A DNA stretch of 64,000 nt from Acidobacteriota bacterium. GTDB lineage: Bacteria > Acidobacteriota > Terriglobia > Bryobacterales > Bryobacteraceae. The stretch lies in the NCBI GenBank assembly GCA_029776225.1, contig JAKOTR010000032.1:62001-126000 (forward strand). Direction: 5' to 3'. The notes under the pieces were generated by a model. The model made no database searches and had not been told where the DNA came from. It was given only the letters and a program-made list of their open reading frames with translations. Positions 19,574 to 25,448 of this stretch are shown here, in pieces. Position 1 is the stretch's first letter; each line of letters opens with the position of its first letter. Made by a program: the position numbers and the translations under genes.

Positions 19574-19603
19574 TTGCATTGCCGCCCCTGTATACGCTAT
19601 TCT
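19574..19603 (+). promoter_or_regulatory. Candidate promoter of the ilv leader
   Basis: TTGCAT (19574-19579) and TATTCT (19598-19603) with an 18-base spacer are moderate matches to -35 and -10 boxes. Transcription would start near 19610, about 57 bases before the GTG that begins the Ile-rich leader peptide. No other candidate in the gap from 19459 looks better. Confidence 0.4.
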
Positions 19604-19666
19604 GCTCAAAAAGGGATGGGAGAGGCTCCCCAATTCGGTCAATTGAGTGAGTCACCCCTCCACAGT

Positions 19667-19741
19667 GTGCCCTCACAGGCTGTACTTTCCGTAATTATCA
19701 TCGCCATTATCATCGGGGTCGCTGTACCGGACCCCGCCTGA
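19667..19741 (+). CDS. ilv operon leader peptide
   Basis: A 24-codon frame from GTG 19667 to TGA 19739-19741 encodes a peptide with the core VIIIAIIIGVAV: six isoleucine and four valine codons plus one leucine. An in-frame ATG at 19616 would give a 41-residue version, and neither start has a clear ribosome site. The position, just ahead of a strong terminator (19763-19807) and of ilvB, and the branched-chain amino-acid codon run are those of a ribosome-stalling leader peptide. Charged tRNA-Ile or tRNA-Val shortage would halt the ribosome on codons 19691-19714 and change the fold of the downstream RNA. Confidence 0.85.
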   Translation: MPSQAVLSVIIIAIIIGVAVPDPA

Positions 19742-19777
19742 TTCGGCCTGTAGGGATTCTGAAAGGCCATCGGCGGG
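19714..19777 (+). promoter_or_regulatory. ilv attenuator: pause hairpin and antiterminator
   Basis: CGGGGTC (19714-19720) pairs perfectly with GACCCCG (19730-19736), giving a 1:2 hairpin at the end of the leader ORF. Part of arm 2, CCCGCC (19733-19738), can instead pair with GGCGGG (19772-19777), with an inner GGCCT/AGGCC pairing (19746-19750 with 19764-19768). This alternative fold takes up the left arm of the terminator. The folds are mutually exclusive. A ribosome stalled on the Ile codons would cover arm 1 and favour the antiterminator. Confidence 0.75.
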
Positions 19778-19807
19778 AGAAATCAAATCCGGCCGATGGC
19801 CTTTTTT
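19763..19807 (+). terminator. ilv attenuator terminator
   Basis: AAGGCCATCGGC (19763-19774) and GCCGATGGCCTT (19792-19803) form a perfect 12-bp stem with a 17-base loop, followed by a run of six T (19802-19807). It stands 72 bases before ilvB and after the leader stop, so it must be conditional; read-through depends on the antiterminator fold. Confidence 0.9.
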
Positions 19808-19878
19808 ATTGGTAGTTCGTTTTATTCGAAATTCGGGTCGGCTGCCCCGCAGCCCACCCCAAAGAGTTAGGAGAGTGA

Positions 19879-21609
19879 ATGTCGAATTTGATGAGCGGCG
19901 CGCGAATGCTGCTGGAATGCCTGGTCCGCGAGGGGGTCGATTGTTTCTTCGGCTACCCCGGAGGCGTAACCCTCCCCTTATATGACGCGGTCTATGACCA
20001 CCCCATGCGCCACGTACTCGTACGTCACGAGCAGAACGCGGCGTTCGCAGCTTCCGGCTACGCCCGCTCCACGGGACGCGTTGGCGTTTGCTGTTCCACC
20101 TCCGGCCCCGGCGCCACCAACCTGGTCACCGGGCTCGTGGACGCCATGATGGATTCCATCCCCGTGGTCGCCATCACCGGGCAGGTCCACAGCAAGCTGA
20201 TCGGCAGCGACGCTTTCCAGGAGGCCGACACGTTCGGCATCACGCGTAGCTGCACGAAGCACAACTACCTGGTCAAGAACATCAACGAACTCCCGCGAAT
20301 CGTCCATGAGGCGTTCTACATTGCCGCGAGCGGCCGCCCCGGCCCGGTCCTGATCGACATCCCGAAGGACGTCTTCCAGGGGCAGGCCCACTACTCCCCG
20401 GTCTCGGCCATTCACCTGCCCGGCTACAAGGTGCCCGGCGAGGGCCACACCGGCCAGATCCGGCGCGCCGCGCAGATGATCTGGGACGCCGAACGGCCCT
20501 TCGTCTACGCAGGCGGCGGCATCGTCTCATCGGGCGCTTCCGCCGAGCTGCGGGAACTGGTTGAGCTGGTGGATATCCCCACCGTCTGCACGCTGATGGG
20601 TCTGGGCGCGCTTCCTGGCAGCCACCCGAATTTTGTGAGCATGCCCGGGATGCACGGCAGCTACGCCGCCAACATGGGCATGACCCAGTGCGATCTTCTC
20701 ATCGCCCTCGGCGTCCGCTTCGATGACCGCGTCACCGGCCGCCTCTCCGCCTTCGCCCCGCGCGCCAAGGTCATCCACGTCGATATCGACCCCGCCGAAA
20801 TCGGCAAGAACCGCGTGCCGGATCTGCCGATCGTCGGCGACGCCAAGCGCGTGCTCAGGCGCATCATCAAAGTTCTGCGCGAACTGGAACCGAAGATGCG
20901 CGACGTCAGGGCGGAGAGCCGCCGCGCCTGGTGGCGCCAGATCCGCCAGTGGCAGGAAGAGCACCCGCTCGTGCCCGCCATGTCCGCCCACGAGATCAAA
21001 CCGCAGCACCTGATGACGGAAATCAATCGCCTGGCGAACGGGCGGGCCATCGTCGCCAGCGATGTCGGCCAGCACCAGATGTGGGCCGCCCAATTTATCC
21101 GTTTCGAAGAGCCGCGCCTGTGGCTCAGCTCCGGCGGCCTCGGCTCGATGGGCTTCGGCCTGCCCGCGGCCATGGGCGCCCAGGTCGCCAACCCGGACAA
21201 GCTTGTCTTTGCCGTTGTGGGCGATGGCGGATTCCAGATGTCGGTTGCCGAGCTGGCGACGATTGCCAGCAACGGCCTGCCGGTGAAAATCATAGTCTGC
21301 AACAACGGCTGTCTCGGCATGGTGCGGCAGTGGCAGGAGCTGTTCTACAATAACCGGACCTGCGCCGTCGAGCTGGAAGCCTTTCCGGACATCGAGAAAC
21401 TGGGCGCTGCTTACGGGATCAAGGGCCGCACTATCGAGCGGCCGGAGGAAGTCCGGCCCGCCCTCGAGGAAGCGGTGCGCGAGCCGGGTCCGTACCTGCT
21501 TAACGTCAAGGTTTCGCAGTGCGAGAACGTGTACCCGATGGTCCCGGCGGGCGCGGCCCTCAATGAGATGGTGCTGGCGCCGCCCAAGCCCGTTCCGGTG
21601 CCGAAATAG
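19879..21609 (+). CDS. ilvB: Acetolactate synthase large subunit
   Basis: The 576-residue protein has the ThDP-enzyme layout: N-terminal Pyr domain with FFGYPGGVTLPLYDA and the catalytic glutamate in VRHEQNAAFAA, a central domain, and a C-terminal PP domain with the ThDP-binding GDGGFQMSVAEL...NNGCLGMVRQWQE block. It condenses two pyruvates to acetolactate, or pyruvate with 2-ketobutyrate, the first common step of Val/Leu/Ile synthesis. A GGAG-rich ribosome site precedes ATG 19879. It opens an ilvB-ilvN-ilvC operon controlled by the Ile/Val attenuator upstream. Confidence 0.96.
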   Translation: MSNLMSGARMLLECLVREGVDCFFGYPGGVTLPLYDAVYDHPMRHVLVRHEQNAAFAASGYARSTGRVGVCCSTSGPGATNLVTGLVDAMMDSIPVVAITGQVHSKLIGSDAFQEADTFGITRSCTKHNYLVKNINELPRIVHEAFYIAASGRPGPVLIDIPKDVFQGQAHYSPVSAIHLPGYKVPGEGHTGQIRRAAQMIWDAERPFVYAGGGIVSSGASAELRELVELVDIPTVCTLMGLGALPGSHPNFVSMPGMHGSYAANMGMTQCDLLIALGVRFDDRVTGRLSAFAPRAKVIHVDIDPAEIGKNRVPDLPIVGDAKRVLRRIIKVLRELEPKMRDVRAESRRAWWRQIRQWQEEHPLVPAMSAHEIKPQHLMTEINRLANGRAIVASDVGQHQMWAAQFIRFEEPRLWLSSGGLGSMGFGLPAAMGAQVANPDKLVFAVVGDGGFQMSVAELATIASNGLPVKIIVCNNGCLGMVRQWQELFYNNRTCAVELEAFPDIEKLGAAYGIKGRTIERPEEVRPALEEAVREPGPYLLNVKVSQCENVYPMVPAGAALNEMVLAPPKPVPVPK

Positions 21610-21632: not shown

Positions 21633-22184
21633 ATGCTACAAGTCATATCGCTCTTAGTCGAGAACAAGCCCGGCGCACTGATGCGCATCACCGGCGTACT
21701 CAGCGCCCGCGGATATAACATTGAAAGCCTGACGGTCGCGCGCACGCTCGATCCGACGCTCTCCCGCATGACCATCGTGGTGGATGTTGAACCCTCCCTG
21801 CGCGCCCAGGTAATCAAACAGATGAACAAGCTCATCAACGTGCTGCAGGCCTCGGACCTCACGGACGGCCCCGCCGTGCTGCGCGAGATGGTTCTGCTCC
21901 GCGTCCGCGCACCGATGGAAAGCCGTACCGCCATTCTCAAGGAGGCCGAAATCTTCGGAGCGCGCGTGGTGGACTCCTCGGTGGAAGGCTTCGCGCTGGA
22001 GGCCAGCGGCGACCCGGAAAAGCTCGACGAGTTCATTGATGTGATGCGGGCCTATGGCGAGATCGAGGTCACCCGTTCGGGGCTTCTCGCCGTTTCGCTC
22101 GAACCCAAGAAACTGCGCCTCTCCCCTCCGATTCCCACACGGAACGAAGCGCTCAAAACCAAGGAAGTAGTCACAACGGAGTAA
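21633..22184 (+). CDS. ilvN: Acetolactate synthase small (regulatory) subunit
   Basis: The 183-residue product opens with an ACT domain (VISLLVENKPGALMRITGVLSARGYNIESLTV), which binds valine in this family and gives feedback control of the large subunit. The C-terminal half (REMVLLRVRAP... DSSVEGFALEASGDPEKLDEFIDVM) matches the IlvH/IlvN C-domain that activates catalysis. It lies 23 bases after ilvB and 3 bases before ilvC. Length is close to the common IlvH size, with a short extra tail of about 20 residues. Confidence 0.95.
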   Translation: MLQVISLLVENKPGALMRITGVLSARGYNIESLTVARTLDPTLSRMTIVVDVEPSLRAQVIKQMNKLINVLQASDLTDGPAVLREMVLLRVRAPMESRTAILKEAEIFGARVVDSSVEGFALEASGDPEKLDEFIDVMRAYGEIEVTRSGLLAVSLEPKKLRLSPPIPTRNEALKTKEVVTTE

Positions 22185-22187
22185 TTC

Positions 22188-23234
22188 ATGGCAAAACGCT
22201 ACTACGAAAAAGATGCAAATTTGAATGATCTGAAAGGCCGCACCGTTGCCATCATCGGCTATGGCAGCCAGGGCCACGCCCACTCGCTGAACCTCCGGGA
22301 TTCCGGCGTCGACGTCGTCGTCGCCGAACTCCCCGGCACCGCCAACTGGGACAAGGCAAAGGCCGCCGGACTCCCCGTGATGACCGCCGCCGAAGCGGCT
22401 GCACGCGCCGACATCATCATGGTGCTCGTCGCCGATCACCATCAGCCCGGCGTGTACAACGAAGCCATCGCCCCGAACCTGAAAGCCGGCAAGACCCTCA
22501 TGTTCGCCCACGGATTCAACATCCACTTCGGCCAGATCGTGCCGCCGAAGGACGTGGACGTCTCGATGATCGCTCCGAAGGCCCCGGGACACCGCGTGCG
22601 CGAGCTGTTCCTGGAAGGCGTCGGCGTTCCCGCCCTTGTCGCCGTCCAGCAGGATGCCTCCGGCAAGGCGCTCCAGACCGCTCTCGCGTATGCCCTCGCC
22701 CTCGGCTGCCTGAAAGCGGGCGTGATCGAGACCACCTTTAAGGAAGAGACGGAGAGCGACCTGTTCGGCGAGCAGGCCGTGCTCTGCGGCGGCGTCTCCG
22801 AGTTGATCCGCGCCGGATTTGAAACGCTGGTGGAGGCCGGCTACGCCCCCGAGATCGCCTACTTCGAGTGCCTGCACGAGCTCAAGCTGATCGTCGATCT
22901 CATCCAGGAAGGCGGCCTCGCCTACATGCGCTTCTCCGTGTCCGATACCGCCGAGTACGGCGACTATACGCGCGGTCCCCGCGTCATCGACGGCCGCGTA
23001 CGCGAGACCATGAAGCAGATCCTCGCCGAGGTCCAGTCCGGCCAGTTCGCCAAGGAGTGGATCGAGGAAAACAAGTCCGGCCGCAAAAACTTTCTCGCCA
23101 TGCGCGAGGCGGCGCGCACGCAGCCCATTGAAACGGTTGGCCGCGAACTGCGCGAGATGATGCCATTTCTCAAGAAGAAAAAGGAAGCCGGCGTCCCCGA
23201 GGACGATACGGCCCAGACTACAGGCGCAAGGTAA
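22188..23234 (+). CDS. ilvC: Ketol-acid reductoisomerase
   Basis: The 348-residue class I (short) enzyme starts [40 protein letters not shown], with the Rossmann [17 protein letters not shown] nucleotide loop. The C-terminal knotted domain has the metal-binding D/E residues in [16 protein letters not shown] and the [13 protein letters not shown] block. It isomerises and reduces acetolactate or acetohydroxybutyrate with NAD(P)H and Mg2+. It is the third gene of the ilvBNC operon; a strong terminator follows seven bases after the stop. Confidence 0.96.
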
Positions 23235-23281: not shown

Positions 23282-24889
23282 ATGAAAATTTCTGTTCTCG
23301 ACACTACGCTGCGCGACGGCACGCAAGGTGAATCCATATCTTTTACCGTTGAGGATAAGATCGCGATCGCTCTGAAACTCGACGAACTCGGAATCGACTA
23401 CATCGAGGGAGGCTGGCCCGGCTCCAATCCGCGCGACAAGGAATTCTTCTCGCGCGCGAAGGACCTCAAGCTCAAGCACGCCCGGCTCACCGCGTTCGGC
23501 TCCACGCGCTTCGCCAAGAATCGCGTCGACCAGGACCCGAACGTCAAGGCGCTGCTCGAAGCCGGCACCCCTACCATCTCGATCTTTGGCAAGACGTGGG
23601 ACTTGCACACCCGCCGCGCGCTCAAGATCTCCGAGGAAGAGAACCTCAAGCTGATCTTCGAGACCGTGCGCTATCTCAAGGATCACGGCAAAGAGGTCAT
23701 CTTCGACGCCGAGCACTTCTTCGACGGCTACAACAGCAACCCGGCGTTCGCGCTGCGCGCGCTCGAAGCGGCCCAAAAAGCGGGCGCCGACATTCTGTGC
23801 CTGTGCGACACCAACGGTGGAACGCTCACCGGCAGGGTGACGGAAATCGTCGCCGAAGTCCGGAAGCGCTTCGACGGCATCATTGGTATCCACGCGCACA
23901 ATGACTCCGATTGCGCCGTGGCCAACACCATCGCGGCCGTCGAGCAGGGCGCCACGCACATCCAGGGATGCATGAACGGCTATGGCGAGCGGTGCGGCAA
24001 CGCCAATCTCTGTTCCGCCATCGCAAACCTGGAGTTGAAGCTCGGCCACACCGTCATCGGTCCGGAGAGGCTGACCAACCTCGCTCCGGTCGCCCGGTTC
24101 ATCGCGGAACTGGCAAACCTCCCGCTCCGCGGCGACCAGCCCTACGTCGGCCACAGCGCGTTTGCGCACAAAGGAGGCGTCCACGTCAGCGCCATTCTGC
24201 GCGACGCGGCCACCTACGAGCACGTCGATCCCGCGCGCGTCGGCAATCGCCAGCGGGTGCTGCTCAGCGACCTTTCCGGCCGCGCCAACATTCTTTACAA
24301 GCTCAAGCAGCACGGCATCGCCGACCGCCTCGACGAAAAAGCGCGCGGCGAACTGCTCGAGCGGATCAAGCACATGGAGTACGAAGGCTACGAACTCGAG
24401 GCCGCCGAGGGCACCTTCGAACTGCTCGTCCGCGAGGCGCTGCGCCCCGGCGTAAGGTTCTTCGAGCTCCTGAGTTCCGAGATCGTCACCAAAGTGGACG
24501 ACAACGATTCGCTCACGAGAGCCACCGTCGTGCTGAAGGCGCAGGACGGAATCCATAGCGCCACCGCCAAGGGCAACGGCCCCGTCCATGCGCTCGACCT
24601 CTGCCTGCGAAAGTGCCTTTCCACCCTGTATCCCAGCATCGCCGAGGTGCGCCTCACCGATTACAAGGTGCGCGTCCTCGAACCCAAGAAAGGCACCGCG
24701 GCCAGGGTTCGGGTGCTGATCGAATGGTCCGATCATCAACGGTCCTGGAGCACCGTCGGCGTGTCTGATAACGTCATCGAAGCAAGCTGGCGCGCCATGG
24801 TCGACGCCATCCGGCTTGAGTTGATGCGCCTTACCGAAACGGACGAAGCCCTTTCCAAGGCGGTCGAGGACTACTGCTGGGGGGTCTGA
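23282..24889 (+). CDS. cimA: (R)-citramalate synthase / 2-isopropylmalate synthase-like
   Basis: The 535-residue protein begins MKISVLDTTLRDGTQGESISFTVEDK, the DTTLRDGxQ signature of the IPMS/homocitrate/citramalate family. It has the HAHND metal-binding block (IGIHAHNDSDCAVANT), NGYGERCGNAN, and a C-terminal regulatory domain. The form with TQGESISFTVEDKI and IEGGWPGSNPRD is typical of the CimA branch (TIGR00977), which condenses acetyl-CoA and pyruvate to citramalate, giving 2-ketobutyrate for isoleucine without threonine. An isopropylmalate synthase role is less likely but not excluded. It follows ilvBNC across a strong terminator and has no obvious ribosome-binding site. Confidence 0.88.
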   Translation: MKISVLDTTLRDGTQGESISFTVEDKIAIALKLDELGIDYIEGGWPGSNPRDKEFFSRAKDLKLKHARLTAFGSTRFAKNRVDQDPNVKALLEAGTPTISIFGKTWDLHTRRALKISEEENLKLIFETVRYLKDHGKEVIFDAEHFFDGYNSNPAFALRALEAAQKAGADILCLCDTNGGTLTGRVTEIVAEVRKRFDGIIGIHAHNDSDCAVANTIAAVEQGATHIQGCMNGYGERCGNANLCSAIANLELKLGHTVIGPERLTNLAPVARFIAELANLPLRGDQPYVGHSAFAHKGGVHVSAILRDAATYEHVDPARVGNRQRVLLSDLSGRANILYKLKQHGIADRLDEKARGELLERIKHMEYEGYELEAAEGTFELLVREALRPGVRFFELLSSEIVTKVDDNDSLTRATVVLKAQDGIHSATAKGNGPVHALDLCLRKCLSTLYPSIAEVRLTDYKVRVLEPKKGTAARVRVLIEWSDHQRSWSTVGVSDNVIEASWRAMVDAIRLELMRLTETDEALSKAVEDYCWGV

Positions 24890-24893
24890 GGCG

Positions 24894-25448
24894 TTGCGCT
24901 ACGTCTTCCGTAGGCGCATCCCGAAGTTCGACCGCGTGCTGCTGGTCGAAAGCGGATCGCGCGGTATTGCCGAGCGCGTTCTGCCCGTGCTCCGCCGCAA
25001 CCACGGGGACAACCTCCAGATCGATATCGTCACCTGCTACGCCGGCTCGCCCGGGGGGTCCGCGCCGGAGACCGTGGTCTTTCACGTCTCGAATTACCCC
25101 GGGCGCGCCGGCTTCAAGCGCCTCTGCGGCGAACTGCTGGCGCGCCGCTACCCCGCCCTGGGAATCATCTGTTCCGGCGAGCCCATCATGACCCGCTGGA
25201 AGTGGGCGCTGGCTGCCCGCCTCCCGGCCAAGGTCTTCATCATCAACGAAAACGGCGATTATTTCTGGTTCGACTACAGCAACTGGCGCATCATCGCCTA
25301 CTTCGCCTTGCTGAGAACCGGCCTGGCCGGACCGGGCGCCCTGCGCAGCCTCGCCCGGCTGGCGCTGTTCCCCTTCACGCTGCTTTACCTGCTCCTTTAC
25401 GCGGCAGCCGTCCACCTGCGGCGGGCGGCCAGGAACTGCGGCTTCTGA
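24894..25448 (+). CDS. Unknown protein with C-terminal membrane helix
   Basis: From TTG 24894, four bases after the cimA-like stop, the frame encodes 184 residues. The N-terminal part (DRVLLVESGSRGIAERVLPVLRR) looks like a Rossmann-type start. A middle segment reads PAKVFIINENGDYFWFDYSNW. The last 40 residues contain a hydrophobic helix (LALFPFTLLYLLLYAAAVHL). I do not recognise the family. A distant relation to glycosyltransferase or nucleotide-sugar proteins is possible. Its closeness to cimA suggests co-transcription with it, not necessarily a shared function. Confidence 0.6.
   Translation: MRYVFRRRIPKFDRVLLVESGSRGIAERVLPVLRRNHGDNLQIDIVTCYAGSPGGSAPETVVFHVSNYPGRAGFKRLCGELLARRYPALGIICSGEPIMTRWKWALAARLPAKVFIINENGDYFWFDYSNWRIIAYFALLRTGLAGPGALRSLARLALFPFTLLYLLLYAAAVHLRRAARNCGF

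Follow-up and report, generated by a model that had tools for sequence, protein, structure and literature searches.

A predicted ribosome-mediated attenuator that would sense isoleucine and valine upstream of an acidobacterial ilvBNC operon

Background

The attenuators of the Escherichia coli ilvGMEDA and thr operons combine a leader peptide of cognate codons with three competing hairpins, and translation of their leaders starts at a normal ribosome-binding site.

Leaders rich in branched-chain amino acid (BCAA) codons have also been described before ilvB in Corynebacterium, Mycobacterium, Streptomyces and Leptospira, and in the ilvB-OMG motif of several phyla (excerpts of PMC1262725 and PMC10272879); attenuation of ilvB by upstream ORFs (uORFs) has been argued to be widespread (PMC10272879, excerpt). 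In Corynebacterium ilvBNC (IlvL, ilvB-II motif), transcription starts one nucleotide from the leader start codon (excerpts of PMC11857589 and PMC10272879), and one of the control codons named for C. glutamicum is GUA (PMC11857589, excerpt). For M. tuberculosis ilvB1, GUA is drawn as a regulatory codon (PMC13236596, excerpt).

Here we describe an element at positions 19574-19807 of an acidobacterial window, the whole 64,000-nucleotide stretch of DNA that was analysed, whose source is a draft genome of 5,177,044 bases. The element lies directly upstream of ilvB. To judge from excerpts on Corynebacterium ilvBNC, the two share the site before ilvBNC, a BCAA-rich leader ORF and a terminator with an antiterminator; the anti-antiterminator and the start codon near the transcription start described there have predicted counterparts here. 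The Corynebacterium peptide has 15 residues with three Val, two Ile and two Leu codons, while the peptide here has 41 with a run of Ile plus Val; moreover, the stop codon here, unlike that in Corynebacterium, falls at arm 2, and the likeness is one of layout. A short BCAA uORF, an intrinsic terminator and, as is predicted here, masking of the antiterminator by a ribosome at the stop codon are features of M. tuberculosis ilvB1NC as well, but its control codons read LVVI whereas those here are an Ile run followed by V-x-V, a different sequence (PMC13236596, excerpt). The ilvB-OMG and Leptospira ilvB motifs resemble the element in lying upstream of ilvB with predicted uORFs rich in BCAA codons; unlike the peptide here, theirs are reported to be rich in Thr as well (PMC10272879, excerpt).

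Relative to E. coli ilvGMEDA and thr, the element differs in its predicted leaderless, or nearly leaderless, start and in a first hairpin (1:2) that is weak in many relatives. An initial annotation of this DNA had regarded such attenuation as less often documented outside Proteobacteria and Actinobacteria. That view needs qualifying in light of the several groups named above. For Acidobacteria, no leader-peptide attenuator appeared in the titles or abstract openings among the matches listed in the open literature, and the word stem searched for is absent from the main text, as excerpted, of PMC11109978 and PMC8632094. The principle is known; its occurrence in this acidobacterial lineage is new as far as the literature search reached. 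The lineage itself, first described as a likely acidobacterium, agrees with the best four named IlvB relatives, an Acidobacteria bacterium, an Acidobacteriia bacterium and two Bryobacterales.

The operon and its three hairpins

Family-model matches uphold the assignment of the genes behind the element as ilvBNC and identify the fourth gene as that of citramalate synthase (Table 1), which, judged by the spacing, is probably part of the same operon. The end of the citramalate synthase gene is adjoined by an ORF of 184 codons with a TTG start (24894-25448); it has no Pfam or NCBIfam match at E 0.001 and may not be a gene.

Table 1. Features of the ilvB upstream region and operon (positions in the window)
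Feature	Positions	Strand	Basis
Promoter: -35 TTGCAT 19574-19579, 18-nt spacer, -10 TATTCT 19598-19603	19574-19603	+	Pattern match
Predicted leader ORF from ATG, 41 codons, MGEAPQFGQLSESPLHSVPSQAVLSVIIIAIIIGVAVPDPA, stop TGA 19739-19741	19616-19741	+	In-frame open start near -10
ORF from GTG, 24 codons, MPSQAVLSVIIIAIIIGVAVPDPA, stop TGA 19739-19741	19667-19741	+	Leader ORF of the initial annotation
Control codons ATT ATC ATC GCC ATT ATC ATC GGG GTC GCT GTA (-15 to -5)	19694-19726	+	Ile+Val enrichment
Hairpin 1:2 (anti-antiterminator), CGGGGUC 19714-19720 with GACCCCG 19730-19736	19714-19736	+	Fold -13.3 kcal/mol
Hairpin 2:3 (antiterminator), CCCGCC 19733-19738 with GGCGGG 19772-19777	19733-19777	+	Fold -24.3 kcal/mol
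Hairpin 3:4 (intrinsic terminator), T6 19802-19807	19763-19807	+	Fold -31.8 kcal/mol
ilvB, acetolactate synthase large subunit	19879-21609	+	TIGR00118, 795.9 bits, cut-off 538.35
ilvN, acetolactate synthase small subunit	21633-22184	+	NF008864, 177.6 bits, cut-off 119
ilvC, ketol-acid reductoisomerase	22188-23234	+	NF004017, 545.3 bits, cut-off 336
Citramalate synthase gene	23282-24889	+	TIGR00977, 701.5 bits, cut-off 450

Three mutually exclusive folds had been proposed for the RNA, and their positions and arm overlap were confirmed, with the fold energies of Table 1: arm 2 is common to 1:2 and 2:3, and arm 3 is common to 2:3 and 3:4. Distal pairs extend the antiterminator (19740-19742 with 19769-19771, and 19745-19749 with 19764-19768). 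The terminator, when recomputed, proved as perfect as claimed, with AAGGCCAUCGGC (19763-19774) pairing with GCCGAUGGCCUU (19792-19803) over 12 bp in addition to inner and outer pairs, and with its T6. Rfam 15 covariance models gave no match at gathering score in the window; in 19600-19900 there were only chance microRNA and isrD matches, with E up to 5.

Promoter and start of the leader

A promoter pattern, TTG[CT][AG]T-N16-19-TAnnnT, which was framed after inspecting the upstream sequences, is present upstream of all 34 family leaders, with an exact TTGCAT in 31. The opposite strand of these stretches has it at 0/34 loci, and among 23 other loci it occurs once, at L007. When the transcription start is set seven bases beyond the first base after the -10 box, the predicted start in the window falls at about 19610-19611. 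ATG 19616 sits 12 nt past the -10 sequence, an offset that is identical in the congener L130. At 33 of the 34 family loci the -10 is followed after 6-27 nt by an ATG or GTG that is open and in frame, the other locus (L108) having a TTG at 9; between 3 and 14 nt, such an in-frame codon is found at 23/34 loci, compared with 0 and 2 loci for the other two frames. The peptide frame is open through to the stop at 34/34 loci and the shifted frames at 3 and 14, the first of these counts being due in part to how the start was picked. Predicted 5' UTRs in the family measure -1 to 20 nt, and -1 or 0 at 13 loci. Thus, given that promoter and in-frame start coincide, the family leaders are predicted to be leaderless or nearly so. 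In three acidobacterial genomes, 9.7-19.4% of genes have been predicted to be leaderless (PMC3160421, excerpt). The order-level group (17 rows) mostly has TTGACC, and its first in-frame ATG or GTG comes about 23-41 nt after the predicted transcription start.

The leader had originally been started at GTG 19667. This candidate was rejected: some 56 nt separate it from the predicted transcription start, and its Shine-Dalgarno match is at most three bases long. It is probably an internal codon, and the leader probably begins 17 codons upstream, at ATG 19616, which corrects the start that a reporter construct would use. The remainder of the peptide as first described is retained, namely the Ile run (19694-19714) and four Val codons other than the start (GTA, GTA, GTC, GTA).

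Conservation among relatives

IlvB was searched in 61 genomes. Of the close loci, 35 had readable upstream DNA: 33 belong to the window's genome and family, and the other two, L006 and L007, come from named records and were grouped by similarity; there was no readable start-proximal upstream DNA at L005 and L008 or in genomes G001, G005, G018, G025, G037 and G055. The element is present at 34 of the 35, all distinct in the compared stretch. The exception, L007 (Bryobacterales), keeps the TTGCAT promoter, and no BCAA leader or terminator was found upstream of its ilvB; this is a possible natural loss of the attenuator. A terminator hairpin followed by at least three T was detected by pattern at 33/34 family loci and by eye at L113 (T3). 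L086, whose stop codon comes a few bases earlier than in the other loci, was left out of the codon counts and the ribosome model but kept, by use of an anchor instead, in the alignment and arm-swap tests described below.

A diverged form occurs at 17 of 18 order-level loci (families f2 and f3), where peptides mostly end in Pro-Gly-stop and arm 2 is mostly GCCCCGGC. At the eighteenth, L124, the core sequence is present with the stop codon out of place, and this locus is left out of all order-level counts. Over the compared stretch L131 and L133 do not differ. Nine of the 17 order-level relatives have no U-tract of at least 5. The leader and 2:3 are kept, with a longest T run of 2-4, at L121, L122, L125, L126, L127, L129, L131, L132 and L133. 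When ten order-level relatives (the nine without a U-tract, plus L123) were folded, no common structure sequestering the ilvB start was seen. The element is absent at four loci outside the order (L136-L138 and L039).

The conserved leader ORF and the compensatory changes in the folds that were sought in relatives were both found, so the sequence-level condition named for refuting the attenuator, lack of a conserved Ile run or of such changes, did not hold. Since the layout is conserved at 34 distinct loci, and a single candidate was found among 75 comparison loci, the element represents more than chance.

Covariation and specificity of the arms

Covariation was scored against 500 shuffles in alignment A1, which has 34 rows of family loci; relatedness is not modelled in this test or in the arm-swap test. 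For hairpin 3:4, 92.9% of cells are paired and 28 double changes occur; 0/500 shuffles reached either value. In the proximal part of 2:3, 86.8% of cells are paired (3/500) and there are 7 double changes (4/500). When 2:3 is slid by +1, fewer cells pair (72.1%), there are more pair types, and the covariation score is equal (0.166 vs 0.161) because of runs of C and G. Hairpin 1:2 is paired in 67.6% of cells in fixed columns and showed no covariation in this register (254/500 shuffles); it is only about 4 bp long in many relatives. No complex conserved fold beyond the three hairpins was found in A1.

Since the arms shift register between loci, an arm-swap test was used after this negative result for 1:2. 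The duplex energy of each locus's own arms was compared with that of arms exchanged between the 34 loci (2000 permutations). Each pairing was specific (0/2000), with z values of -3.7 for 1:2, -5.6 for 2:3, -6.9 for 2:3 with its distal part and -8.9 for 3:4. None of the control pairings 1:3, 2:4 and 1:4 was weakened (z 0.5, 0.0 and -0.3). Among the 17 order-level rows the extended 2:3 alone was significant (0/2000, z -3.6), and 1:2 (153/2000), the short 2:3 (283/2000) and 3:4 (151/2000) were not; many arm-4 segments are misplaced there, and for that reason 3:4 is not judged in this group.

The arrangement had been likened to exactly the E. coli logic. The exclusive folds agree with this, but the likeness needs qualifying for 1:2, which lacks covariation in a fixed register and is so short in many relatives.

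Codons of the leader

The leader peptide has 41 residues here and 18-51 in relatives. Between codons -14 and -4, counted back from the stop, Ile and Val make up 58% of codons in 33 family leaders, compared with 14% in the ilvB genes at these loci; in 17 order-level leaders the share is 42%. Synonymous choice is also biased: GTA accounts for 56 of 104 Val codons in the family leaders compared with 6% in ilvB, and ATT for 60 of 106 Ile codons compared with 21%, although binomial values on this bias ignore relatedness and part of it may reflect avoidance of structure.

Codon -5 is GTA in the window (19724-19726), in 25/33 family leaders and in 17/17 order-level leaders; away from this position, GTA provides only 3 of the 23 Val codons in the order-level group. 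Codon -7 is GTC in 21/33 family and 13/17 order-level leaders, at a position that is also paired in 1:2. Pro at -2 is found in 29/33 family and 15/17 order-level leaders, followed at -1 by Ala in 32/33 of the former and Gly in 17/17 of the latter. This ending is conserved because its arm 2 nucleotides pair with arm 3.

Modelling the ribosome position

In our model, a ribosome covers the RNA through 12 nt beyond the first base of the A-site codon, and the readout is the upstream pairing of arm 3, in the equilibrium fold, while arm 4 is not yet transcribed. With the ribosome at codons -16 to -13, 32-33 of 33 family loci have a mean pairing above 0.5, and from -12 to -6 all 33 do. The number then falls to 27 loci at -5, 20 at -4, 6 at -3 and 2 at -2, and to 0/33 both at -1 and at the stop. 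The corresponding counts for the 17 order-level loci are 15 from -16 to -6, 10 at -5, 4-6 from -4 to -1 and 1 at the stop. In the window itself, pairing is 0.88-0.97 up to -6, 0.59 at -5, 0.63 at -4, 0.45 at -3 and -2, 0.04 at -1 and 0.02 at the stop. The model thus assigns sensing to codons up to -6, places codon -5 at the boundary and makes the stop codon the OFF position.

When the ribosome is removed and the folded RNA begins 75 nt ahead of the stop, 26/33 loci keep most of arm 3 in upstream pairs (0.68 in the window), indicating that 1:2 is not a dependable brake in the equilibrium model. A role for 1:2 like that in E. coli has only the arm swap in its favour, with this upstream pairing and the fixed-register covariation test against it.

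Proposed mechanism and alternatives

We read the element, with a probability of about 0.85, as a ribosome-mediated transcription attenuator of the ilvB-ilvN-ilvC-citramalate synthase operon that senses Ile and Val. This was also the reading of the initial annotation, and it is now backed by conservation, compensatory changes, covariation of 2:3 and 3:4, and arm-swap specificity, together with the coincidence of promoter and start and the codon bias, all visible in the DNA. The cognate operon, the switch in the position model and the independent BCAA leaders that precede ilvB in other acidobacterial families count for it as well. Points against it are the lack of covariation in 1:2, the equal score of the slid 2:3, the arm 3 pairing predicted without a ribosome, the 0.45 that the window keeps at -3 and -2, the order-level loci lacking a U-tract, and L007. 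The transcription start, translation, footprint, coupling and amino-acid response that we infer would combine as follows. A ribosome would initiate at ATG 19616 on a leaderless or nearly leaderless transcript and read the 41 codons closely trailing RNA polymerase. When charged Ile- or Val-tRNA is short, it would slow on the control codons (about -16 to -6), leaving arm 2 free to pair with arm 3 as the antiterminator, and the operon would be transcribed. With fast reading, the ribosome would come to the stop codon, which is located at arm 2, and mask this arm; arm 3 would then pair with arm 4, and transcription would stop in the T6. Hairpin 1:2, which is weak in many relatives, may act as a secondary brake when the leader is not being translated or the ribosome has been released.

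The same anatomy would also suit a leader ORF that couples general translation to read-through, with Ile/Val starvation not being the signal. In the Streptomyces coelicolor ilvB leader, codon substitutions reportedly left regulation unchanged (PMC1262725, excerpt), and the predicted sequestration of arm 3 at 26/33 loci without a ribosome means that the initiation rate alone could matter. This explanation is nevertheless improbable given the shares already cited for Ile and Val in leaders and ilvB (58% vs 14%), the biased synonymous choice, the GTA kept at -5 and a switch that the position model places at Ile/Val codons. Conservation of the last two residues (Pro at -2, Ala or Gly at -1) might instead point to nascent-peptide arrest, in which the ending (Gly-)Pro-Ala-stop, or Pro-Gly-stop at the order level, stalls termination and sets the fold. 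However, those codons are the very arm 2 nucleotides that pair with arm 3, which explains their conservation, and in the position model it is the terminator that would gain from a ribosome kept at the stop; we consider arrest highly improbable.

Control by a riboswitch or a protein-bound leader (T-box, ppGpp riboswitch or unknown aptamer), the ORF being incidental, would have a parallel in the ppGpp riboswitch that controls ilvB in other bacteria (PMC10272879, excerpt). It is less probable still, since the window has no Rfam 15 match at gathering score and A1 has no complex conserved fold. A plain terminator beside a chance Ile-rich ORF is barely credible: terminators alone are common, and weak matches to our covariance model in other genomes often cover the hairpin only (see below), but such an accident is contradicted by the conserved frame, the codon bias, the three-way arm specificity, the promoter placed by an in-frame start, and the 0/174 shuffled upstream regions that score at least 7 in the leader scan. 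Arrest peptide, riboswitch and chance ORF were each rejected as explanations of the leader.

Within the attenuator reading, the well-placed rare Val codon is the most interesting feature. We tentatively suggest, as a possibility that we hold to be doubtful, that GTA at -5 is a position-locked switch codon in a leaderless attenuator, kept at this codon across an order and marking the final point at which a ribosome would leave the antiterminator mostly formed, so that the charging of the GUA-reading Val isoacceptor would set the decision. As GUA is also the control Val codon named for Corynebacterium and Mycobacterium, unrelated lineages may in that case have converged on a leaderless start and a GUA readout. 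Two questions become open to experiment: with the near-fixed GTA at the switch boundary, which isoaccepting tRNA is read by an attenuator, and with the predicted leaderless start, whether such leaders are well served by leaderless initiation.

Distribution in the phylum and beyond

When 75 ilvB loci, nearly all from other phyla, were scanned in a like manner, 1 candidate leader was obtained, and it has no Val codon in the counted stretch. A covariance model of the element, R1, has a single strong match in the window's genome. Under stricter filters, R1 had matches at E up to 0.001 in 27 of 396 phylum genomes. Three matches are strong: the window's own copy and one in each of two genomes of its family. 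In the remaining 24 genomes the matches score 24-30 bits, several cover the hairpin only, and most are taken for plain terminators. When 32 R1 loci were compared with the four operon proteins (tblastn), six matched ilvB: the window's own locus twice (L139, L166), family loci L140 and L141, L160, and L150, where a partial ilvB match lies about 1 kb from the R1 match.

Of 129 genomes sampled from the phylum, 96 yielded an IlvB match. Upstream regions (58, from 57 phylum genomes with IlvB matches of at least 43% identity, the partial G066 being left out) were scanned for an ORF with at least 7 Ile/Val/Leu in ten residues upstream of a terminator. Seven of the 58 were positive, against 0/174 shuffles, and they belong to families f16 (two), f27 (two), f38 (two) and f45. 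At L206 (f38), the scored ORF is in a different frame from the plausible leader. None of 11 loci in family f8 reached a score of 6 in the scan. L160 (f30), reached through R1, has a further BCAA leader before ilvB. Taken together, ilvB attenuation in the phylum looks patchy, perhaps with several origins, and the element offers a usable attenuator signature for an abundant soil phylum.

By eye, L160 and L190 have promoter-like sequence 11 and 13 nt upstream of the ATG. The f16 genome G069 carries two ilvB copies (L173 and L175), which are preceded by separate BCAA leaders that differ from one another, each with a terminator. The ilvB leaders at L178, L180, L190, L201, L206 and L160 are of unrelated sequence and often use ATT and GTA codons.
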